Assembly: GCA_030145195.1 (NCBI GenBank)
Contig: JAQYVY010000008.1
Coordinates: forward strand, 1 to 64,000
DNA length: 64,000 nucleotides
Reading direction: 5' to 3'
Source: Desulfuromonadales bacterium
GTDB lineage: Bacteria > Desulfobacterota > Desulfuromonadia > Desulfuromonadales > BM103
The notes under the pieces were generated by a model, which made no database searches, was not told the DNA's origin, and worked only from the letters and a program-made list of their open reading frames with translations. The translations under genes were made by a program, and so were the position numbers. Within the stretch, counting starts at the first letter, position 1; the number at the start of each line of letters is the position of its first letter. This document shows positions 1 to 11,827 of this stretch, piece after piece.

Positions 1-3000
1 GCGGTCGTTGGCTCTGGAGCGGTGTAGAGAAGGGTCTCCCCTTCTGTGCTGCAGGGATCGTCACGATAGGCCCGGATACGGAAATCATAGTTGGTTTCGG
101 GAATGAGTTCCCCGGCAACATAGGTCATGGTGTGATTGTAGCGGAGCAGAGCCTCATCGGCCGACAGGGGTCGGGTGTAGACCGCCACTTCGTCGATGCT
201 CCCCGGGAAGTAGGTGTAGGTTTGTGTCGAATTGGCCTGATGACCAATAGTGACATTGTTGTCGCTGGTATCGAAGGTGATGGTAGGACTGGTCCAGGTC
301 TGCTGGTCGCCGTTTTTGTAAAGCTGTACCCCGCTGGCCGGATCAAACACCACCACAAGGTGCTGCCATGTGTTGAAATCGACCGATACACTGGCAGAGG
401 GTACTTGTTGAGTGGTCGAGCCGTTATTAATATACCAGTAGTTAGAATAGAAGCTGAGACCCCAGTCGTAGTTGCCGTTCTCGGTGCTGAGCACCCACTG
501 ATAGCTGTTATTGACGTCTATGATCGGATAGACCCAGGCCTCGAAGGTTGCACCGGGACCGGTAGCCGACTGGTCGATGTTGAGGTTGGTGGCTATGTAG
601 TCGTTACTGCCGTCGAACACACCGGCCCGGCCGTACTTGCCTTCGCTTGTCGTCGCCGCACCGTTGTAGGAGGTGCCGTTGTTGCCGCTGCCTGAAGCGT
701 CGATGACATCGGCCGTGCCATTGCTCCAGCTTGGCTCGTCCATGTGCAACTGCAAAACGTTGCCCTGCGGCAAGCCGTTGGTCGTGGCGAAGGTGAAATC
801 GCCATCAACGGCGCAGGCTCCAGCATTGTCACAGTAACCGACTTTGAATCCGGTGGCGGCGAAATGAGGATAGCTCCATTCGAGGGCCACGTGCGCCTCT
901 GTGATGGCCCCCGAAGCGGGGTTGGTCGGGGTCGCCAGAGCAGGAATGGCCGCCTCGACTACATTACTCGGATCGGTGCTCCCCCAGGAGCCCAAGGCGC
1001 TGACACGGTAGCGATATGTGACCCCGGTGCATACCGCATCATCGCTATAGGTGATTGCGTCAGCAGCGAGGGTTTCATCGAGGGTACTGTAGGTGCAGTC
1101 GCCAGCAACCGTGCAACGCTCGATCTTGAAACCCGTCTGGGTGGTGGTATTGGGAATCCAGTCGAGTTGCACCCTGCCGATATCTTTGACAGTGACACTT
1201 AAATCGGGCAACTGTGGTTCGGTAAAGCCTTCCAGCGCGACAGACCCTGCCGTGGGCCAGCCGCAGGCATCGCTCTTGGCGGCCTTCACCTGGTAGGTGT
1301 AGGTGGTATTCGCGCTAATGGTCACATCGTGGTAACGGTCCACGCCGTGTTGGTGCAAGGTAGTGATCTCCCCAACCTCCAGCGGTCGGTCGAACACCGT
1401 CACCTCGTCGATACCTCCGTCGAAGCTGCTCTTGATGTAGCGCTCTACCGCCTCCGCCTCACTCAAGGGCCGATTGTAAACCACCACCTCGTCAATTCTG
1501 CCACCAAAATAATCAGCATCAACGGTGCCCCTGCGACCGATGGTCACCGTGCCGTGGTCACCGGAATCGTAGATATTGGGATACGTATAGCTGTCCTCGG
1601 TGCCGTTTTTGTACAATTTGACCGACCCGGCGGCCGGATCGAACACCGCTACCAGATGGGTCCAGGTGTCCTTCGCCAGTGCCATGGAGGCATACGGGCG
1701 GTTGCCGCCGCTGTCGAAATAAACGTTTCCGTTGTTGACGCAAAACCCCCAGTCGTAGCCGCTGGCATCCCGACTGCTAATAATATAACGGTAGCTGCCG
1801 TCCTGGATGGTCGGATAGACCCAGGCCTCGAAGGTCGCCCCGGGACCGGCAAGGGTCTGGTCGAGGGACAAACCGGTCGAAATGTAGGCGTCACTGCCGT
1901 TGAACTCACCGCCCCAACCCGAGCGGCCCTCGGCAACGGAAGTGGCACTGCCCACAGCGGTGCCTGTGTTGCCGTTGCCCGAAGCATCAAGCACCTCGCC
2001 AGGGGTTCCATCCCACAGATCCTCATCCATGTGCAACTGCATCAAATCCCCATTGAGGTCATCGCTACGACCGAGCTGCAGCGTTCCACTGCTGTTGTCG
2101 AAGTCAATGGGCGGAGCGACTCCTGCGTCAATGCCGTTTTTGTAGAATTTTACAGTCCCGCCAGAAGGATCGAACACCGCCGCAACGTGCTGCCAGGAGC
2201 CTACATCAACCGAGATGCCAGTGGAGACAGAGGAGGCGTCGTCGCCGGTGGTCAGATACCAGGTGCCGCCATTGCGCAGCAGACCCCAGTCGTTGCCGCC
2301 GTCGTCAGTGTCAAACAGGTAATGGTCACCGCTGCTGGTGCTATTTGGCTTAACCCAGGCGGCGAAGGTCGCCCCCGATGAATCGGCGCTCTGGTCGAGG
2401 ATCAAGGGGGTGGTCACGTGGGCATAAGCGCTGGCAAAACTGCCGCTTCGGCCGTAACGTCCAAGATCAACGGTGCTGGCGCCGCCGGAGGTAGCGGCGT
2501 TGCCGTTGCCCGAAGCATCAAGCACCTCGCCTGCGGTGCCGTCCCAAGAGACCTCGTCCATACGATACAACGCCAGGTTGCCATAGATCCTGTCCAGGCT
2601 GAAGACGTCGGGAGTACCGCAGCCCATGCCGCTGCCCAGGCAGCGTTCAAGGATAAAACCAGTCTCATCACTATTGTTGTCGCTCCAGTGCAGATCAATG
2701 AAGGCTTCAGTGACCCGATCAGCTGTGAGATCCGTCGGCGCCACCGATACCGGCGTAGCGCTGTCAGCAGTCGCCTGTTCACTGTAGGCAGTTGTCCACT
2801 CGAGAATCTTGAAGGCCTTGACTCGGTACAGGTAACTGTTGCCAGGGCAGACATCAATGGGGTCATCGTCAACATAGCTCACCGCGCTGCCATCGAAGTT
2901 GACAGCGCTAGAAGCTACAGTAAAGGTGGAACAGGCCGCACCGATGCAGCGCTCGATTTCAAATTCATAATTTATAGCATTGGGGGTGTTGTCAATCCAA

Positions 3001-6000
3001 TCGAGGCGGACCTCGCTGCTGCTAAGGACCGTTGCAGTCAACCCGCTGGGTGCCTGAGGGGTTTCGGTGGTCACCTGCAGTTCGACCCAGCGCGATACGT
3101 CTTCACCTTGGTACGACTGTACCCGGTAACAGTAGGTCGAACCGATCGACAGCCCAGCGTCCGAATAGCTGGTACTGTGGGCTACGCTGGGCAACAACTC
3201 CCAGCTGCCAATTCCGCCGCAGACTCCGTTCTTGCGCTGCAGGCGAAAATCGTAGGAATCGCTGAGCAGAATCATCGAATTATCGGTCCAAGCAAGATCA
3301 ATTTGGGTGTAAACCATGGTTGCGGAAAAGGGTGCAGGGGTCTGCATCACCGCGTCGTCGGCTTTGAACATCAGATAGTCAGTGCCACTGGCGTTAGTCC
3401 CGACGAGGCCAACGACAAAGGCCTCGCCGAAGGCATTAGCCGCCACTGCGGCTGGCGCATCATCGAGGCCATCGGGCCCAGCATAAAGGTTAGCGCCAAC
3501 CACCATGCCAGTATAATCTAATTTAAGGGTGAGAATGTCGTCATCGCCATCCTCATTAGTGATGCCGGTGACCGTCACCACACCTGAGCGGTCGATGCTC
3601 ATCGCCACCGCGGCTTCGTCGCTGGCGGGCCGGTCCAGTTGCACGCCCCCCGTCCAAACGTCGTTGCCGTCGGCATCGTAGCGGAAAAGCTGAAAATCGT
3701 GGTTGCCGGAGCCGATGAAGCTGGTCCCAACCACCACCACCTCGCCGTTGAGAGGATCAATCTTCAGTGCCGTTGCGGCATCATAGCCGCCATTATCGTA
3801 AACTATCGGCCACCCGGCGACGATGCCACCATCTATGCCGCGGTAGCGGATGGTGACAAAATCGCTGTTGCCATCACCATTTATAGCTGTGCCAGTGACA
3901 TAGACATCACCATCTGGACCGACCGCCAAAGCCGCGACCTCATCGTTGCCATTGCCAGCGCCGTTGTACGTTCTCGGAGTTCCGCCCCAGAGCAGCGCGC
4001 CATTGCTGCCGTCGTACTTGGCAACGAAGAAATCTTTATTGGTGGCCGTGGTGGTGAATCCGCCGACAAACACGTCCCCGGCAGCATCAAAAGCCACCGC
4101 CCTCGCCTTATCGACGCCGTTCGCCGTGCCATCAAAGGGCTCGGCATCCCAGACACGGTCTCCAGCGACGTCAATTTTGAGCACGTAGATGTCGAAATCC
4201 CCGCTACCAGCCACCTTTTCGCCGTGGCCGACCACGACTGAGTTGTCAGAGTCATCGACCGCCGTGGCAACCCCCACAGAACGATCGTCACCATTTCCAG
4301 CTCCGTTATACTGGTCGTCCCACAAAGCAAGAGTGTTGCCATTTTCAACGGGCTGCCCGTCTGCAGCGTAGCCAAGAGTGTAGACATCATTGGTGTTGCC
4401 CTGCTCAAAGGTGTACTGAAGAGAATCGCCGGTTACGATCACCTGATTCGTCCCATCCACCGTGATCGCGTTCCCTGCGTCTGCACCGTGGTTGGCATCA
4501 TCATAGCGGGAACGCCACTTTTCGCTATGGTCATCCCGGTCAAGTTTGATGGTGAGGTAATCGGTGCCGGTAGGATTTTGCAAAGCATCCTCGCCGAAGC
4601 TATAACCAGTCACCACCGGATGGTTGTCGGGTCCAATGGCAATCGCCTCAGCAAAATCGTTGGCGTGAGCGGTCCCATCAACCTGGTAAAGCCAAGTGGG
4701 AACAGTTTCACTTATGACCGTGGTCTTGGCATTGGCCTCATTGCTGTAATGGGATTCATAAGTAGCGTTGACAACCTTGGCCCGGTAATAGTAGCGGGTA
4801 TCGACAGCGAGGCCGCTATCGTTGTCCCAAGTTAAAGTCCCGGGCCCAAGAGTGATGATGGGGCCGTAAGTGCCACCGAGACCCGTCTTCCTCTCGATTT
4901 CGACCCCGGTTTCGGTAGTCGAGTTAAGATCCCACGTCAGCCGGATCGAGCTATTGGTCAAAGTCTCAGCCTGTAGAGCGGTAGGGGCGTCGAGCGCCCC
5001 CGGATCGTAGATGACTCCGTAAAAGTTGTGGTCCGGCGACACGGCGGTACCGCGGTTCGACCAGCCGCCAACCAGCACCTTACCATCAGGCCCCAGACCG
5101 ATGCCCACAGCTTGATCGTTATAATCGTGACCAGCATCAGACATAACATCTTCCCAGAGCAAGACACCCTCTGGACCAGGCGCGTCCTTCTTGTATTTGA
5201 GGGTCAGAAAATCGTCGTAACCATTCACATGGTTGACATCATAACCGGTGACGAAGACATCCCCCTGATCATCGACGACGATGTCCCGACCATAGTCATT
5301 GTCGTCCGTATGGGAATTGTAAATGTGATGCCAAACCTCAGTACCGCTGGAACCATCATAGCGCGCAGTAAAGACATCCTCTTCGCTGCCATTAGCGCTG
5401 GTCCCGGTAATGAAAACATCCCCTGTATCGTCAATCCACAGAGCTCCCCCCTCATCGTTGTTAGCTCCGTTATACCCGGCAGGCCACAGCGCGGCACTAT
5501 CGCCGTTGCTGGGGTACTTGGCAGTAAAGATATCCCGACCGGTGCCAAGATGGGAGACATAGCCAGTTACCACCACGTTGCCAGCGGCATCCAAAGCCAC
5601 GTCCTGGCCGCGGCAGTTACCGACGCCGTCACCGGTGTAAAACCATTCGCCGACAAAGCTCTTGTCGAACCCAAACTTCGCCGTCAGCAATTTAAAAACC
5701 CCCGTCGTCCCCTCTTCACACTCGCCGGTCACCGCGATGCCATCAATCCCGTCGTCACGGGCGGCAATCGCAATGGCCCGGGCATGCCCCGTCGTCCCAC
5801 CATCGTAGGTCAACTCCCACAGTGGTGAGCCGTCCCCTTCAGCCCCTCCTGGACCGTACTTGATGATGAGAAAATCTTCCTTGCTGCCCGTGTTCATAGT
5901 TTGGCCAGCCACGTAAACGTTGTCGTTGTTATCGATGGCCAGGCTGTTAGCATAATCGTTGCCGCCAAGAGGCCCATCGTAACTGTGCTGCCAAAGAATG

Positions 6001-6452
6001 ACTGCATCTCGCAAGGCATCCGGATCAGGACCATCCTCGGCCCCGTCGCCGTCAAATTTAACCGTATAAAAGTCTGTTTCGAAACCATTCTTGACCGTAC
6101 CGGTAACCAACACGTGATCTTGGGAATCAATAGCTACCGCTGAAGGGATATCGGCTCCACCAGCAAAATCCAACGTCGCTGGTCCCCACGCCAGGCCACT
6201 GCCATCGGCCTTGATTTTGGCTACGAAATAATCTCGACTGTCATTCTCTCCGGTGGTTCCCACAATAATGATATTGCCCTGGTGGTCGACAGCCGAAGCC
6301 GTCGCGAAGTCCTTCACACCAAGGTTCACGACATCATTAAAGCTGGTGATATCCCCCCCCGCACCCCATACGGCAAAGGGTACGCTGAGAAACAGAACCA
6401 GACAGATCAAAAACCAACCACTTTGCCTTGTTCGCTTAAACGCCTCAGACAT
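1..6452 (-). CDS. Giant exported beta-propeller / FN3 / LamG surface protein (3' end outside window)
   Basis: One frame stays open from the ATG at 6452 to the left edge, giving at least 2150 residues with no stop in the window. GGAGG lies about 8 nt before the ATG. A signal peptide (basic start, then a hydrophobic stretch ending near VWGAGG) is followed by two arrays of SBBP-like propeller repeats, with recurring phrases such as D-F-V-A-K-Y-D and V-Y-V-T-G, at about residues 30-485 and 575-1035. A fibronectin III domain sits between them (487-569). Several FN3 domains follow (about 1035-1290), then two LamG domains in tandem (about 1296-1464 and 1469-1684), more FN3, and a third LamG (about 1900-2105). 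The LamG units share near-identical DNA, for example around 1973-2030 and 2505-2560, which indicates recent duplication. The gene starts 47 bp after the multiheme cytochrome and is probably cotranscribed with it. Adhesion or polysaccharide binding at the cell surface is inferred from the domains; the true function is unknown. Confidence 0.85.
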   Translation of the reverse strand, partial: MSEAFKRTRQSGWFLICLVLFLSVPFAVWGAGGDITSFNDVVNLGVKDFATASAVDHQGNIIIVGTTGENDSRDYFVAKIKADGSGLAWGPATLDFAGGADIPSAVAIDSQDHVLVTGTVKNGFETDFYTVKFDGDGAEDGPDPDALRDAVILWQHSYDGPLGGNDYANSLAIDNNDNVYVAGQTMNTGSKEDFLIIKYGPGGAEGDGSPLWELTYDGGTTGHARAIAIAARDDGIDGIAVTGECEEGTTGVFKLLTAKFGFDKSFVGEWFYTGDGVGNCRGQDVALDAAGNVVVTGYVSHLGTGRDIFTAKYPSNGDSAALWPAGYNGANNDEGGALWIDDTGDVFITGTSANGSEEDVFTARYDGSSGTEVWHHIYNSHTDDNDYGRDIVVDDQGDVFVTGYDVNHVNGYDDFLTLKYKKDAPGPEGVLLWEDVMSDAGHDYNDQAVGIGLGPDGKVLVGGWSNRGTAVSPDHNFYGVIYDPGALDAPTALQAETLTNSSIRLTWDLNSTTETGVEIERKTGLGGTYGPIITLGPGTLTWDNDSGLAVDTRYYYRAKVVNATYESHYSNEANAKTTVISETVPTWLYQVDGTAHANDFAEAIAIGPDNHPVVTGYSFGEDALQNPTGTDYLTIKLDRDDHSEKWRSRYDDANHGADAGNAITVDGTNQVIVTGDSLQYTFEQGNTNDVYTLGYAADGQPVENGNTLALWDDQYNGAGNGDDRSVGVATAVDDSDNSVVVGHGEKVAGSGDFDIYVLKIDVAGDRVWDAEPFDGTANGVDKARAVAFDAAGDVFVGGFTTTATNKDFFVAKYDGSNGALLWGGTPRTYNGAGNGNDEVAALAVGPDGDVYVTGTAINGDGNSDFVTIRYRGIDGGIVAGWPIVYDNGGYDAATALKIDPLNGEVVVVGTSFIGSGNHDFQLFRYDADGNDVWTGGVQLDRPASDEAAVAMSIDRSGVVTVTGITNEDGDDDILTLKLDYTGMVVGANLYAGPDGLDDAPAAVAANAFGEAFVVGLVGTNASGTDYLMFKADDAVMQTPAPFSATMVYTQIDLAWTDNSMILLSDSYDFRLQRKNGVCGGIGSWELLPSVAHSTSYSDAGLSIGSTYCYRVQSYQGEDVSRWVELQVTTETPQAPSGLTATVLSSSEVRLDWIDNTPNAINYEFEIERCIGAACSTFTVASSAVNFDGSAVSYVDDDPIDVCPGNSYLYRVKAFKILEWTTAYSEQATADSATPVSVAPTDLTADRVTEAFIDLHWSDNNSDETGFILERCLGSGMGCGTPDVFSLDRIYGNLALYRMDEVSWDGTAGEVLDASGNGNAATSGGASTVDLGRYGRSGSFASAYAHVTTPLILDQSADSSGATFAAWVKPNSTSSGDHYLFDTDDGGNDWGLLRNGGTWYLTTGDDASSVSTGISVDVGSWQHVAAVFDPSGGTVKFYKNGIDAGVAPPIDFDNSSGTLQLGRSDDLNGDLMQLHMDEDLWDGTPGEVLDASGNGNTGTAVGSATSVAEGRSGWGGEFNGSDAYISTGLSLDQTLAGPGATFEAWVYPTIQDGSYRYIISSRDASGYDWGFCVNNGNVYFDSGGNRPYASMALAKDTWTHLVAVFDPAAGSVKLYKNGTEDSYTYPNIYDSGDHGTVTIGRRGTVDADYFGGRIDEVVVYNRPLSEAEAVERYIKSSFDGGIDEVTVFDRPLEVGEITTLHQHGVDRYHDVTISANTTYTYQVKAAKSDACGWPTAGSVALEGFTEPQLPDLSVTVKDIGRVQLDWIPNTTTQTGFKIERCTVAGDCTYSTLDETLAADAITYSDDAVCTGVTYRYRVSALGSWGSTDPSNVVEAAIPALATPTNPASGAITEAHVALEWSYPHFAATGFKVGYCDNAGACAVDGDFTFATTNGLPQGNVLQLHMDEPSWSNGTADVIDASGSGNNGTSYNGAATTSEGKYGRAGVFDGSNDYIATNLNIDQSATGPGATFEAWVYPIIDVNNSYQWVLSTENGNYDWGLSFYSNYWYINNGSTTQQVPSASVSVDFNTWQHLVVVFDPASGVQLYKNGDQQTWTSPTITFDTSDNNVTIGHQANSTQTYTYFPGSIDEVAVYTRPLSADEALLRYNHTMTYVAGELIPETNYDFRIRAYRDDPCSTEGETLLYTAPEPTT

Positions 6453-6499
6453 CAGGGATCCTCCCGGGCATTGTATATTCGCACTGGCAGTCATTATAA

Positions 6500-9400
6500 T
6501 TATTCCCCTCCCCACGGCGTCACATCGTTCCATTGTTGGTTCAGGAAATTGCCACTGCTTTCGGTGCCGCCAGCGGCACCGGCCGACTGGTGGCAGGGCT
6601 GGTAGCGATTTCTCAACCGCGGATAATGCTCGGTATCATTGTGCCATCCAGGGACAACCCCACCAGACTCAAGGTTCCCGCGATGATTCCAGTCAAGACA
6701 GTTGGTGCGCATTAGCCGCTTCAGTCCGGAACTATGGGGCTGGTGACACTTGGAACAGGAGAACGAATGCTCGGCGTTGCTTCCCCAGCCCTTGACCGAC
6801 TCGTGAACCCGATCGATCCCCTCCCATGGCTCAGCACTGTTGAAAGGATAGTTCTTGTTGCTGCCGTCGGTGAGGCTCTCTTTAGGGTGGCAACGTAGGC
6901 ACAGGCCGGCGAACTGGGTGTCGTCCTCCGTGATGCGGGTGCGGCCGGTCAGATCATTGAAAGTCTTGCGGTCGATCTGCACGTTGCTGCTGGTGATATT
7001 CGGTTGTTGTGCTCTGGTTTTGACATTGGTCTGCGGGCTGTCCTCCTTGTAGGGAGATGTCAGCCAAGTCCCCTTGAGCAGCGGCACTGCATATTTCTGG
7101 TTGTCGCCGAGCGAGGGGCTGACCCCATGGGGATCGTGACAGCCACAGCAGAGGCTATTGATCTCCCTTTTGGCGGGCGTAAGGAGCGCCGTGGAATCCG
7201 TGTGGTAATGCCCGCTGATGCCGGTCTTGCCGGCACGGTAAGGGAACCGCTCTTTGACCCCATTGCCCTGACCGTCGAAACGCGGGGTATCGTAATAACC
7301 TCGTATCGGCGCGGTCGCACCAAAGGTCGAGAAGTATCCCCAAGGCAAGTCGTCACTGGGGTCTCCTGGAGTGCCATTGTCAGCATTAGCGGTTTCGTGA
7401 CAGTCGAAACACTGGGCCGCCCCGGCTCCCATGGTGTTGGTCGCGCTACTAATTGCTTTGGCATTGTAGAAGAAGGTGTAGCCGCCCAAACCTGGCTGCG
7501 CTTCCTTAAGGTTGCCACCGTTATTAGAGCCATTGAAAGTCAGGTAACTTGAGGTAACGCCCAAGGTGTTGGAGCCATGAGAACTGTGACAGTCGTAGCA
7601 CTGGACATTTACCGCGCCGCTGGTGTCGGGCAAAACGCCATCTCTGCCGGTAACCGGATCCCAGCCCTCTTGATTGACCGCTGCATTGCCGTGGGCAGAA
7701 TAGGCCTTGTCCTGGATCTTTTGGGCAGCATTTGGATAGCCTGGGTACTTGCCGAAAGCAGTCTTGTCCTCAGGTTCAAGCTGACTATAACGGGCTTCAA
7801 TACTGGTGCGATCCCAGGCGTACTGGCGGGGCGTCTTGCAGTCGCCGAAAACATCCTCATCATTGGCTTGATCGCTGTGACAACCAAGACAATGCTTAGT
7901 GACATTGGCAACATTCTGCCGCTCGTCTGGAGTACCGATGGTGGTGGCATTGAAGATTACCGCTGTGACACTCAGTTCGTATTCTGTTGGGCGCTCAGCC
8001 GAGACCCGAACAACCAGATCATTTTTGGCATCAGCCACTCCTGAGTGAGTCTTAAAGTTGTAACCGGCGTGGTATTCGTCGTTGATCAGTCCCTCTTTGG
8101 TCGCTTCCCAATGGCACTCATAACAATGTCTGTTGGTGACATCCACACCTTGCACATGATGGGAGGGGCTATTGAACTGGAGCATGATGTTCATGCGGTT
8201 CAAAATCCATCCGGTGTGACACTTGGTGCAATCGCGCGGCTGGCTGAACCCGGTATGGGTAGAAACCGGCTTGTCCTTGTGACACTCGTCGCACGATTGA
8301 TCCGAAGCATGACTGTCACCAAATCCGTGTTCATGACATTCGGTGCAGAGACGTTCGGACTGATGACTATCGCCGGTATCCCAGCGATAGTGCGCAGTGT
8401 TGGTATGACAGACATTGCATATACCTTTGATGTCTCCATCATCAACGGCGTAATCTCTGCCCTTGCCAGCGGTTTCGCTTTTATCGATAAAAACAACTTC
8501 AGCTCGGGTTATCGGGATACCGAAGGTGCCATCGGTTTCCGTCGCCACCTGATCCTGAATCATGTAGATGTTTGTGTCGCCGTGTGGGTCATGGCAATCC
8601 CAGCAGAACTTGCCGCCGCGCCACGTCCCCTCGCTCTGATAATCCTCAAAGTGCTTGAACCCGAAATGGGTCGAACTCGCCTTGCTTGAACCCGTGATGA
8701 AGCCGGGCCCAGGATCGTAGCCGAGCCGATAAGGGTTGCTCTCAACATTCCATTCGTCTTGCGGCGTCTCCGGGTCGTCTGCGTAGGCGCTGTGACAGGT
8801 TGCACAGCGCCCGTTGTCGTCGTTGTCGTGGCACTGCAAACAAACCCCCATCATCACGTACTGGTTTTTCATGTCAGCTTTCTGCACTGGGGTCCAGATG
8901 CCGGTACCAGTGTTGTGGATATGAACATCATCCATATGACATCCGGTCGGAGGCCATTGGGCTGGAGTTGCCATGCAGGACACGGTGTCATAACTACCGC
9001 CTGATGCGAATTCCAGATGAGAGACGGCATAAGGCTCCGCAACCATCCCCACCCGAGTCGTGCTATCACTCAATTGGCGTGCCCCGCTGGGATGTCCAGC
9101 ACTTTCGTGGCAGCTACCGCAGCTGTCAGCATCCTGAGGCAGATGGCAACCTGCGGTCATACACGCAGTGGCCCCGCCGACATAGGGCGCGTGGTCATCA
9201 GCATAAAGCTCCCCGTCTTCGGGGTTAGTTCCTGTAATTACAGCAAGTTGTGGAGCCAGAGCTTCGTCCGAATCATGGCAACTAAGACACTCATCCTCGG
9301 TCCTCTCCATGTGGCAGTAAACGCACTCTTTGTCAAAACGTGCCTCAAATTGGGGATGGCGCATCAAGCGTAGCGGGTTCGTCGTATCCTTATGCATCGA

Positions 9401-11827
9401 GTTTTTGTCGTGACAGTACCAGCAGGCGTTTCCGGGAAAATTGGCGGCCGGATTGCCAGATTTAGGGTAAGGGCCGTCGATGGCGGGCCGACCATGCCCG
9501 GTAGTAAACCACTCGGATTCATTGATCCTGCCCTGTATTTTGTCGTCGGCCACATAGTTGGTCACATCAGCTTCGCTGGAACGGTGACATTTCAGGCACC
9601 AAAGCGCCTCGTCGTCTCTAGACCCTCCCCACTGCGGAGGTTTGTCACCGACGTGACAGGCACTGCCCGAACACGTCTTTTCATTTGTAGCGGGGTCCCA
9701 GATTCCGCCGTCCTTCAGGATCACATCTGGCCACTTATTTTTAATATGGTTCTCCGCGTTGACATGCCCGACCTCGGTCTCGGTCATCTGTCCTGTGGGT
9801 TCCCCCCCAGTATGGCAAAGTTCGGTGACACATGAGCCTGGCACTGTGATGGAGTGGCAGTTTTGACAGGCGTAGTCGAGCGCCAGATGCCGAGCGTGGG
9901 AATTTGCACGTTCAGTGCCCGCCCCACCATTGACATACATTGGGGTCGCTTTTTTCCACTCGTCTCCAACAGGCCATCCCGTATAGCCTTGTTCCTCATG
10001 GCACCCAATGCAGTCCCCCGCATGACCATGGCAGGAATCACATTCGGCGTGCTGTTCCAAAGTCCACGGGTACTCTCGTACCTGCGGTGGATTTACCGTG
10101 CCGTCACTATGGCAATAAAGATTGTCGCAACTTTGGGTTGCGGCGTTGTAGCTTGCTGGCGGTCTTTCATCTATATTCCACGTAGATTTAAAAACCACAT
10201 CAACCTCGCCATTGACATGGGCCAGCCCGTTGAGAAGATTGCCGAGGTTGTCGACCGTAGCGGCATGACAGTATTCACAAGGATACTGACGAATCCATTC
10301 GTCTGTGGCCAACCGATCATGGGCATTAGACATCATCATCGAACCGTCGCCGATGCGCCCGTTGTGGCAACCGGTGCAATCGAGCGAGGTAGTATCCGAC
10401 CAGGCGACCGGGACATTTCCGTTACCGCCTCGGCCATCGCTATGACAGTAGGTAGCGTCGCAGCCCTTGGCGCTGTTGTAGCTGCCGGTAACACCATTGT
10501 AGGAGGCGAACACCACGTCTTTGCTGCCGTCAACATGAAGGCTGGCGTCGCTGACAACATCGCTGCCTGTCACCGTAGCCGCATGACACTTCTCACAAAC
10601 GAAGCCGTAGCTGGCAGCATCGGTGTGCTTACCATGACGGCCGCTCAGGGTTGTGGTGGCCCCACTTTCGGCGTGGCAGGAGACACAGTCTTGCGCGCCC
10701 CCACCCCAACTGGGAGTTTTATAGCTATTGACACCGTCGAAGGGAGCGGCGTTACTGTGGCAGTACAGGGTTTCGCAGCTGACATAGACCGGAGAATCAA
10801 CGTAGCCGCCTCCCTCGGTGTAACGGCTCGTTGGCTCACCATCATTGTAGACAGCACCACTCAGCCGCGTATCGCCGACTTCGAAGAGGACCTCGGAATC
10901 GTTGTTAAGGTGCGGCGCACCCTGGTGGCAGAGCTGACATTCCAAAGAGGACATCATCGCCGCCCCTTCGGTGTGGGCAGAATGGCTTCCCCACACTGGC
11001 GGGGTGGCGTGGCAACCACCACAGCTCGGCTGGAAAGCCTCACTATGCTGGTGACAGCCGATGCAGTCACCCTTGTTGTAATGACTCAAGTCACCAGGAT
11101 CCTGGCCGCTCGTGTCGTAACGATGATAACGGGTCTGGCTGTGGCAGCCTTCACAGATATTGGTCGAGGATGTCGCCGGGATGCGAGAATCATCGCCGAA
11201 ACTTGACGAGCCGCTTCTAGCATCAACAAAGGCAACCTGTTGGCCCCCGATCTGGATTGGGAACTGATCGCTGGCCGCAGTCAGGTTTGCCTTGACCCGT
11301 TTGATATTGGGCGACCGTTTGACATGACAGGTACCACAAGAGAACTCACCGTACTTACCACTGTCGATCCCCCAGCCACCTGCCCCCCACTTGCTGGAAC
11401 CTGTAGCCAGAGACGAATGTAACAGCCGGTTGCGCGGCACGAGTCCAGTTATCTCCATAGCAGGGCCGCTGCCATCGGCATCGAGCAAAGTCACCCGCAC
11501 CTGATAGGCCAAGCCATTACTCAAGCCATCGATACTGTACTGATAGGGACTGAGTTGATGATCCAGAGTCACGCTGTTGTCCCAGAGTCCGCCGTCTAAA
11601 TCCCATTCAACCTGCAACTGATTGTCAGTGTTGTCATCACCGCTGTAGTCAACCGTCAGCGCGATCCCGAGATTTTGCGGCAAAGCCTCCCACGCCCCCG
11701 GGACAGTATCGTTCGCGGCCATGGCATTTTGGCCACCGGCCAAAAAAATGCAACAGACCAACAGCAACAAGAAGGAACCACGCATCCCACCCACCCATCG
11801 AAAAAATTTACTAAACATAAGGATCAT
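6500..11827 (-). CDS. Giant multiheme c-type cytochrome (up to 38 heme sites)
   Basis: This is a 1775-residue exported cytochrome. An N-terminal signal peptide (hydrophobic core around residues 18-32, likely cut after AMA) is followed by an FN3-like segment at about 45-130. From about residue 165 onward I count 31 CXXCH motifs, 6 CX4CH motifs (near residues 350, 455, 566, 665, 718 and 888) and one CX11CH candidate near 950. The alternation of CX4CH with CXXCH in the first half matches the Geobacter-type CxxxxCH...CxxCH repeat family; the second half uses CXXCH only. A GGGAGA Shine-Dalgarno lies about 5 nt before the ATG at 11827. Such proteins usually carry electrons across or outside the outer membrane toward metals or electrodes. 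That role is inferred here from heme number and export signal. The downstream partner is the giant propeller/LamG protein. Confidence 0.95.
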   Translation of the reverse strand: MILMFSKFFRWVGGMRGSFLLLLVCCIFLAGGQNAMAANDTVPGAWEALPQNLGIALTVDYSGDDNTDNQLQVEWDLDGGLWDNSVTLDHQLSPYQYSIDGLSNGLAYQVRVTLLDADGSGPAMEITGLVPRNRLLHSSLATGSSKWGAGGWGIDSGKYGEFSCGTCHVKRSPNIKRVKANLTAASDQFPIQIGGQQVAFVDARSGSSSFGDDSRIPATSSTNICEGCHSQTRYHRYDTSGQDPGDLSHYNKGDCIGCHQHSEAFQPSCGGCHATPPVWGSHSAHTEGAAMMSSLECQLCHQGAPHLNNDSEVLFEVGDTRLSGAVYNDGEPTSRYTEGGGYVDSPVYVSCETLYCHSNAAPFDGVNSYKTPSWGGGAQDCVSCHAESGATTTLSGRHGKHTDAASYGFVCEKCHAATVTGSDVVSDASLHVDGSKDVVFASYNGVTGSYNSAKGCDATYCHSDGRGGNGNVPVAWSDTTSLDCTGCHNGRIGDGSMMMSNAHDRLATDEWIRQYPCEYCHAATVDNLGNLLNGLAHVNGEVDVVFKSTWNIDERPPASYNAATQSCDNLYCHSDGTVNPPQVREYPWTLEQHAECDSCHGHAGDCIGCHEEQGYTGWPVGDEWKKATPMYVNGGAGTERANSHARHLALDYACQNCHSITVPGSCVTELCHTGGEPTGQMTETEVGHVNAENHIKNKWPDVILKDGGIWDPATNEKTCSGSACHVGDKPPQWGGSRDDEALWCLKCHRSSEADVTNYVADDKIQGRINESEWFTTGHGRPAIDGPYPKSGNPAANFPGNACWYCHDKNSMHKDTTNPLRLMRHPQFEARFDKECVYCHMERTEDECLSCHDSDEALAPQLAVITGTNPEDGELYADDHAPYVGGATACMTAGCHLPQDADSCGSCHESAGHPSGARQLSDSTTRVGMVAEPYAVSHLEFASGGSYDTVSCMATPAQWPPTGCHMDDVHIHNTGTGIWTPVQKADMKNQYVMMGVCLQCHDNDDNGRCATCHSAYADDPETPQDEWNVESNPYRLGYDPGPGFITGSSKASSTHFGFKHFEDYQSEGTWRGGKFCWDCHDPHGDTNIYMIQDQVATETDGTFGIPITRAEVVFIDKSETAGKGRDYAVDDGDIKGICNVCHTNTAHYRWDTGDSHQSERLCTECHEHGFGDSHASDQSCDECHKDKPVSTHTGFSQPRDCTKCHTGWILNRMNIMLQFNSPSHHVQGVDVTNRHCYECHWEATKEGLINDEYHAGYNFKTHSGVADAKNDLVVRVSAERPTEYELSVTAVIFNATTIGTPDERQNVANVTKHCLGCHSDQANDEDVFGDCKTPRQYAWDRTSIEARYSQLEPEDKTAFGKYPGYPNAAQKIQDKAYSAHGNAAVNQEGWDPVTGRDGVLPDTSGAVNVQCYDCHSSHGSNTLGVTSSYLTFNGSNNGGNLKEAQPGLGGYTFFYNAKAISSATNTMGAGAAQCFDCHETANADNGTPGDPSDDLPWGYFSTFGATAPIRGYYDTPRFDGQGNGVKERFPYRAGKTGISGHYHTDSTALLTPAKREINSLCCGCHDPHGVSPSLGDNQKYAVPLLKGTWLTSPYKEDSPQTNVKTRAQQPNITSSNVQIDRKTFNDLTGRTRITEDDTQFAGLCLRCHPKESLTDGSNKNYPFNSAEPWEGIDRVHESVKGWGSNAEHSFSCSKCHQPHSSGLKRLMRTNCLDWNHRGNLESGGVVPGWHNDTEHYPRLRNRYQPCHQSAGAAGGTESSGNFLNQQWNDVTPWGGE

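Follow-up and report, generated by a model that had tools for sequence, protein, structure and literature searches.

Results

The exclusive pair

We found that a giant multiheme c-type cytochrome of a Desulfuromonadales bacterium is encoded together with a second giant exported protein, here called the partner, and that the cytochrome gene lay immediately upstream of the partner gene, on the same strand, in all 27 genomes of the class in which the partner was found. Since the cytochrome was always beside the partner, the two proteins very probably work together. The stretch of DNA analyzed here, called the window, is the 64 000 nucleotides at positions 1–64000 of contig C37 in a 3.40-Mb assembly, with both genes on its minus strand; an earlier note on this DNA had given both open reading frames, their strands and the 47-bp gap between them (6453–6499) correctly.

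The multiheme cytochrome

The cytochrome (6500–11827, minus strand) has 1775 residues and a signal peptide, and matched the Pfam families Cytochrome_C7 and GSu_C4xC__C2xCH, its place in the latter being given by scores of 93.1 bits for TIGR01904 (cut-off 27) and 59.2 bits for PF09698 (cut-off 21.7). Counting of motifs gave 31 CXXCH, 6 CX4CH and 1 CX11CH, i.e. 38 candidate heme sites, whereas shuffled versions of the sequence held a mean of 0.2 and a maximum of 3 CXXCH. When relatives were aligned, the CX11CH motif recurred in those of genomes G015 and G011 (CM[AS]T...W.P.GCH), and nearly every heme motif was kept among seven homologues having 54–60% protein identity; the previously given figure of about 38 hemes was therefore right. 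As defined by the motif positions and by their conservation in the seven homologues, the heme-binding region extended over residues 164–1698 (6734–11338, minus strand).

At about residues 40–133 (11429–11710, minus strand), an AlphaFold model displayed an N-terminal module of seven strands with pLDDT of about 80–90, which in structure comparison gave Z 11.2 to a fibronectin FN3 domain and by profile matched FN3 of Dscam (E 1.7e-5). As modeled, this module is a genuine FN3 fold, in agreement with the FN3-like start noted earlier, and it was common to other, otherwise different giant cytochromes, including one in genome G033. No PDB chain matched the cytochrome at E ≤ 0.01, a sequence tie to nanowires of the OmcS/OmcE/OmcZ type thus not being found, and an Rfam scan upstream of the gene gave no riboswitch or other element, with its sole match (E 0.84) attributable to chance. 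Both genes of the pair are giant, as the earlier note had said in placing them among the largest of the genome, but the cytochrome is not the largest one, as contig C98 encodes a cytochrome of 4066 residues (L056:4177–16377) with 50 CXXCH and 8 CX4CH motifs. Five stretches of that C98 protein resembled domain II/IV of MtrC/MtrF.

The propeller/FN3/LamG partner

The partner gene (3–6452, minus strand) encodes at least 2150 residues, and the earlier description of an exported protein made from propeller, FN3 and LamG domains held, with the amendment that the open reading frame is truncated as it runs off the start of C37. Profile scans of the 2150 residues in the window found three Laminin_G_3 domains, fn3 and SBBP/delta-60 propeller repeats. 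An AlphaFold model of residues 28–1135 (m0adb19ab8143; alignment of 11 relatives, mean pLDDT 82.6) had a first beta-propeller at about residues 30–485 (4998–6365, minus strand; 4lg9, Z 36.1, 2.6 Å over 329 residues) and a second one at about residues 576–1033 (3354–4727, minus strand; 4zoz_A, Z 32.7, 2.7 Å over 339 residues), with an FN3 domain matched by Pfam fn3 between them (residues 488–574; 4731–4991, minus strand). Both propellers best matched chains of the WD40/BamB type, e.g. TBL1XR1 and BamB, which we take to be eight-bladed propellers, and the partner is modeled as carrying two propellers of eight blades each. The three LamG domains were found at 2046–2426 (E 9.2e-19), 1452–1898 (E 7.5e-23) and 153–614 (E 9.3e-20), all on the minus strand, with Laminin_G_3 scoring 193.8 bits against a curated cut-off of 27.6, and FN3 domains occurred beyond the second propeller too.

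Full-length relatives of the same architecture comprised 3337–3358 residues and ended with DUF2341 and FN3. Contig C18 opens with an open reading frame of 499 residues that contains DUF2341, FN3 and a tail and is 38% and 35% identical to the last approximately 500 residues of such relatives, and because of this same ending and the 38% identity it is very probably the missing C-terminus of the partner. If so, the whole partner would probably have about 3350 residues, like its relatives. The approximately 700 residues between the C37 and C18 parts were sought in the genome assembly and not found. Neither the cytochrome nor the partner, the latter scanned minus these residues, matched any S-layer family in Pfam at E ≤ 0.01.

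The junction between the two genes

The partner open reading frame begins 47 bp downstream of the cytochrome, its ATG at 6452 being preceded by a Shine–Dalgarno-like sequence, GGGAGGA (6459–6465, minus strand), and nothing resembling a terminator was found in the gap on the minus strand. Across the region, consensus promoters and terminators were no commoner than in shuffles. The spacing was operon-like elsewhere too, with gaps of about 3–91 bp at the ten cytochrome–partner junctions that were read. One pair of genome G490 had a strong inverted repeat (GTGTCCATCCGG...CCGGATGGGACAC) in its approximately 90-bp gap (L130, about 8918–9006), which is possibly an attenuator.

Conservation of the pair across genomes

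In a survey of the order, the partner was found in 7 of 136 genomes and the cytochrome lay directly upstream in all seven, so that the conserved adjacency in Desulfuromonadales, which the earlier note had proposed to look for, was indeed present; an eighth partner match, in G011, was dropped as a small unrelated propeller protein. Extending the survey to the class, with pairing judged by comparing coordinates and by reading the loci, we found the partner in 27 and the cytochrome in 29 of 277 genomes. Partner matches in G212 and G427 were left uncounted, as they covered part of the model only and had no heme protein adjoining. A cytochrome without the partner was seen in three genomes (G011, G542 and G592), in which the contigs stop in or just after the cytochrome, and wherever the class survey could resolve the locus, neither gene stood by itself. 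Chance adjacency was rejected, since the pairing was seen in every genome with a partner, and we found neither of the two things that the earlier note had named as speaking against its proposal, i.e. independent occurrence of the genes or a strong terminator between them. With the outlying G376 of another class added, there were 46 paired loci in 28 genomes, several of which had two or three copies; in this count those of G530 and G567:C284 were assigned from coordinates alone, and two in G568 from broken frames. Named carriers were Geothermobacter hydrogeniphilus HR-1 and three metagenome-assembled genomes of Desulfuromonadaceae or deltaproteobacteria.

The flanking genes were mostly unrelated between paired loci, and the pair has therefore been kept while its neighbourhood changes. 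Comparing flanks among the loci, we saw no conservation of a larger cluster at the window's pair, and by this comparison of neighbours no specific flanking gene was common to the window and the loci set beside it. Some pairs had a beta-helix protein nearby, mostly with CarboxypepD_reg (L130:16030–18150, L133:15282–17405, L132:16084–18120, L207:14631–17108 and L098:4191–5999); this is an optional third gene, not seen at the window's pair. The gene trees of cytochrome and partner agreed on the main clade and not in detail, and a claim of co-inheritance was dropped because the trees were too weakly supported.

Twin propellers and FN3 were common to all partners examined. LamG and DUF2341 were found in partners of the window's order, whereas LamG was not found in four scanned partners of other families, which had propellers and FN3, and in one case Ig/cadherin-like domains. 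The term 'lectin-like', as used for the partner in the earlier note, hence fits some lineages only and does not describe the core, as LamG is not in every partner. On the cytochrome side, Geobacterales-like members aligned only from about model position 250 onwards and had no N-terminal module, and the Geobacterales members of the family mostly had 26–29 CXXCH. With LamG variable and that module missing, the shared core is therefore the twin propellers together with the rest of the cytochrome, the arm of the partner being variable.

Fusions, shared end domains and a common tail

The heme module of the window's cytochrome ends in the motif WNDVTPW (6512–6532, minus strand). Tails of this WNxxTPW type were present in 14 of 32 heme-rich open reading frames (the 32 including some repeated or partial ones) versus 1 of 199 others, and in many giant cytochromes that are not orthologous (loci L016, L054, L062, L068 and L144–L146) they mark where the heme module ends. 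The tail may act as a signal for sorting or docking.

In homologues of the C-terminal half of the cytochrome, on contig C6 of the same genome and in G160, G418, G013 and G046, the chain runs past WNxxTPW into FN3/Ig-like or other domains. The C-terminal approximately 500 residues of the G574 partner showed 42% identity with the end of the cytochrome fusion in G046 and 32% with that in G013, the same end domain thus being carried by the cytochrome in some genomes and by the partner in another. In other cytochromes the heme-bearing chain itself included SBBP propellers or LamG. By gene-fusion logic, these fusions and the shared end domain point to deployment of the two proteins in the same place.

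Some further arrangements were noted. Tandem 17- to 22-heme cytochromes of G005:C150 (L065 and L066) were fused to SBBP propeller, TSP3, PKD or LamG domains. On contig C2 of the window's genome (L062:10298–13556), a 10-heme cytochrome adjoins an NHL propeller protein, as a smaller version of the pair theme, with a selenocysteine tRNA nearby. A group II intron match was located just upstream of the paralogous cytochrome fusion of contig C6 (L054:8159–8240). On the 3017-bp contig G005:C76 (L057), the middle part of the cytochrome abuts the C-terminal tail of the partner; this was set aside, as it may be an assembly collapse or a fusion remnant.

Discussion

We consider it probable that the pair is a dedicated two-gene module for extracellular electron transfer, in which the cytochrome conducts and the partner is its dedicated scaffold or adhesin. 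The cytochrome would be exported, fold around about 38 hemes and carry electrons along its length, and the partner would be a non-heme exported scaffold or adhesin. The twin propellers, which are conserved at the N-terminus of the partner, would most likely dock the cytochrome, or the cell surface beside it, and a long FN3/LamG/Ig arm that varies among lineages would reach outward to bind matrix, mineral or another cell. Of the joint extracellular complex proposed in the earlier note, the joint unit is strongly supported by adjacency that is conserved across families, changing flanks, fusions and the shared C-terminal domain, and we infer the physical complex, its secretion beyond the outer membrane to the surface, the docking part, the ligand and the electron donor or acceptor. 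No surface anchor or secretion signal other than signal peptides was identified in either protein. Tentatively, the pair could be a two-subunit conductive adhesin, in which the partner would recognise a solid acceptor or a partner cell and hold a wire of 27–38 hemes against that target, with the swappable C-terminal arm deciding which target each lineage uses.

A conserved operon of cytochrome and partner can also reflect co-expression only, and it is conceivable, though we think it rather unlikely, that the partner acts as an independent adhesin, expressed from the same operon and under the same conditions as the cytochrome but never binding it, the link being regulatory only. FN3, LamG and Ig arms are indeed typical of bacterial surface adhesion proteins and the operon structure alone would look the same, but the two genes stay exclusively paired at about 46 loci whose flanks change, and this, like the fusions and terminal domains shared between the two protein types, argues against such a reading. 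We regard it as improbable that the partner instead serves in maturation or export, its twin eight-bladed propellers acting as does BamB in the form of a periplasmic platform for folding or export of the cytochrome. Such giant cytochromes must need export help, and superposition of each propeller on BamB gives Z of about 27–31; however, the eight-bladed propeller is a common fold whose likeness shows no function, a protein of about 3350 residues with FN3/LamG arms fits an extracellular location better, and the other giant cytochromes of the genome (C98 and C6) had no such adjoining partner in the stretches read. Slightly less probable still is that, through carbohydrate-binding LamG, the partner directs the cytochrome to a polysaccharide or organic electron donor and not to a mineral or partner cell, for although Laminin_G_3 falls within the concanavalin A-like superfamily, one LamG contains a weak Sialidase N-terminal match and some pairs have the beta-helix/CarboxypepD_reg protein nearby, no partner scanned had a catalytic domain and the four other-family partners gave no LamG.

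Propeller proteins of six and seven blades have been described beside multiheme cytochromes, some of them in extracellular fractions (PMC8322314, PMC9769857), as have an operon of 26- and 16-heme cytochromes with a PPIase and a propeller protein (PMC12246660) and the FN3-containing cytochrome OetF (PMC10553843), and the general kind of system is therefore known. The OetABI-type/SEEP-SRB clusters (PMC12246660, PMC10553843) resemble the pair in combining large multiheme cytochromes with a neighbouring protein of propeller fold, and in the FN3 of OetF, but include an outer-membrane porin conduit or PPIase. Here only two genes were seen to be conserved in the loci compared, and the partner joins a very long FN3/LamG arm to its two large propellers. 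In the D. ferrophilus island DFE_0448-0465 (PMC8322314, PMC9769857), compared here by description, the propeller proteins DFE_0451, 0452 and 0463 likewise occur among cytochromes, but the gene set there is larger and the propellers are separate proteins of NHL or lipoprotein type, for which no FN3/LamG arm is reported. Multiheme cytochromes of Geobacter and Geoalkalibacter, tied to mineral reduction (PMC6199725, PMC12016550), share FN3 modules with the pair but bear the beta domains on the cytochrome chain itself, with no dedicated second gene described. OmcO/Gmet_0558, which has 27 hemes and is required for Fe(III) oxide reduction (PMC10989804), is similar by description to the present cytochrome family in heme number and lineage, although no propeller partner is reported in that paper. 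A strict two-gene unit of such size and exclusivity was not found described in the open-access full texts searched, a part of the literature within which the earlier note's view that exactly this pairing is undescribed also holds.

It is not yet settled how giant cytochromes outside the cell are anchored and directed to minerals, electrodes or other cells, and the partner, never found without the cytochrome, is a concrete gene for deletion, also in cultured carriers. Among these, Geothermobacter HR-1 is an Fe(III)-reducing isolate in the genome report of which no mtrABC was found (PMC5968728), and the pair may bear on its Fe(III) reduction. If the pair were truly a conductive adhesin, it would be an undescribed and widespread docking device in the class.
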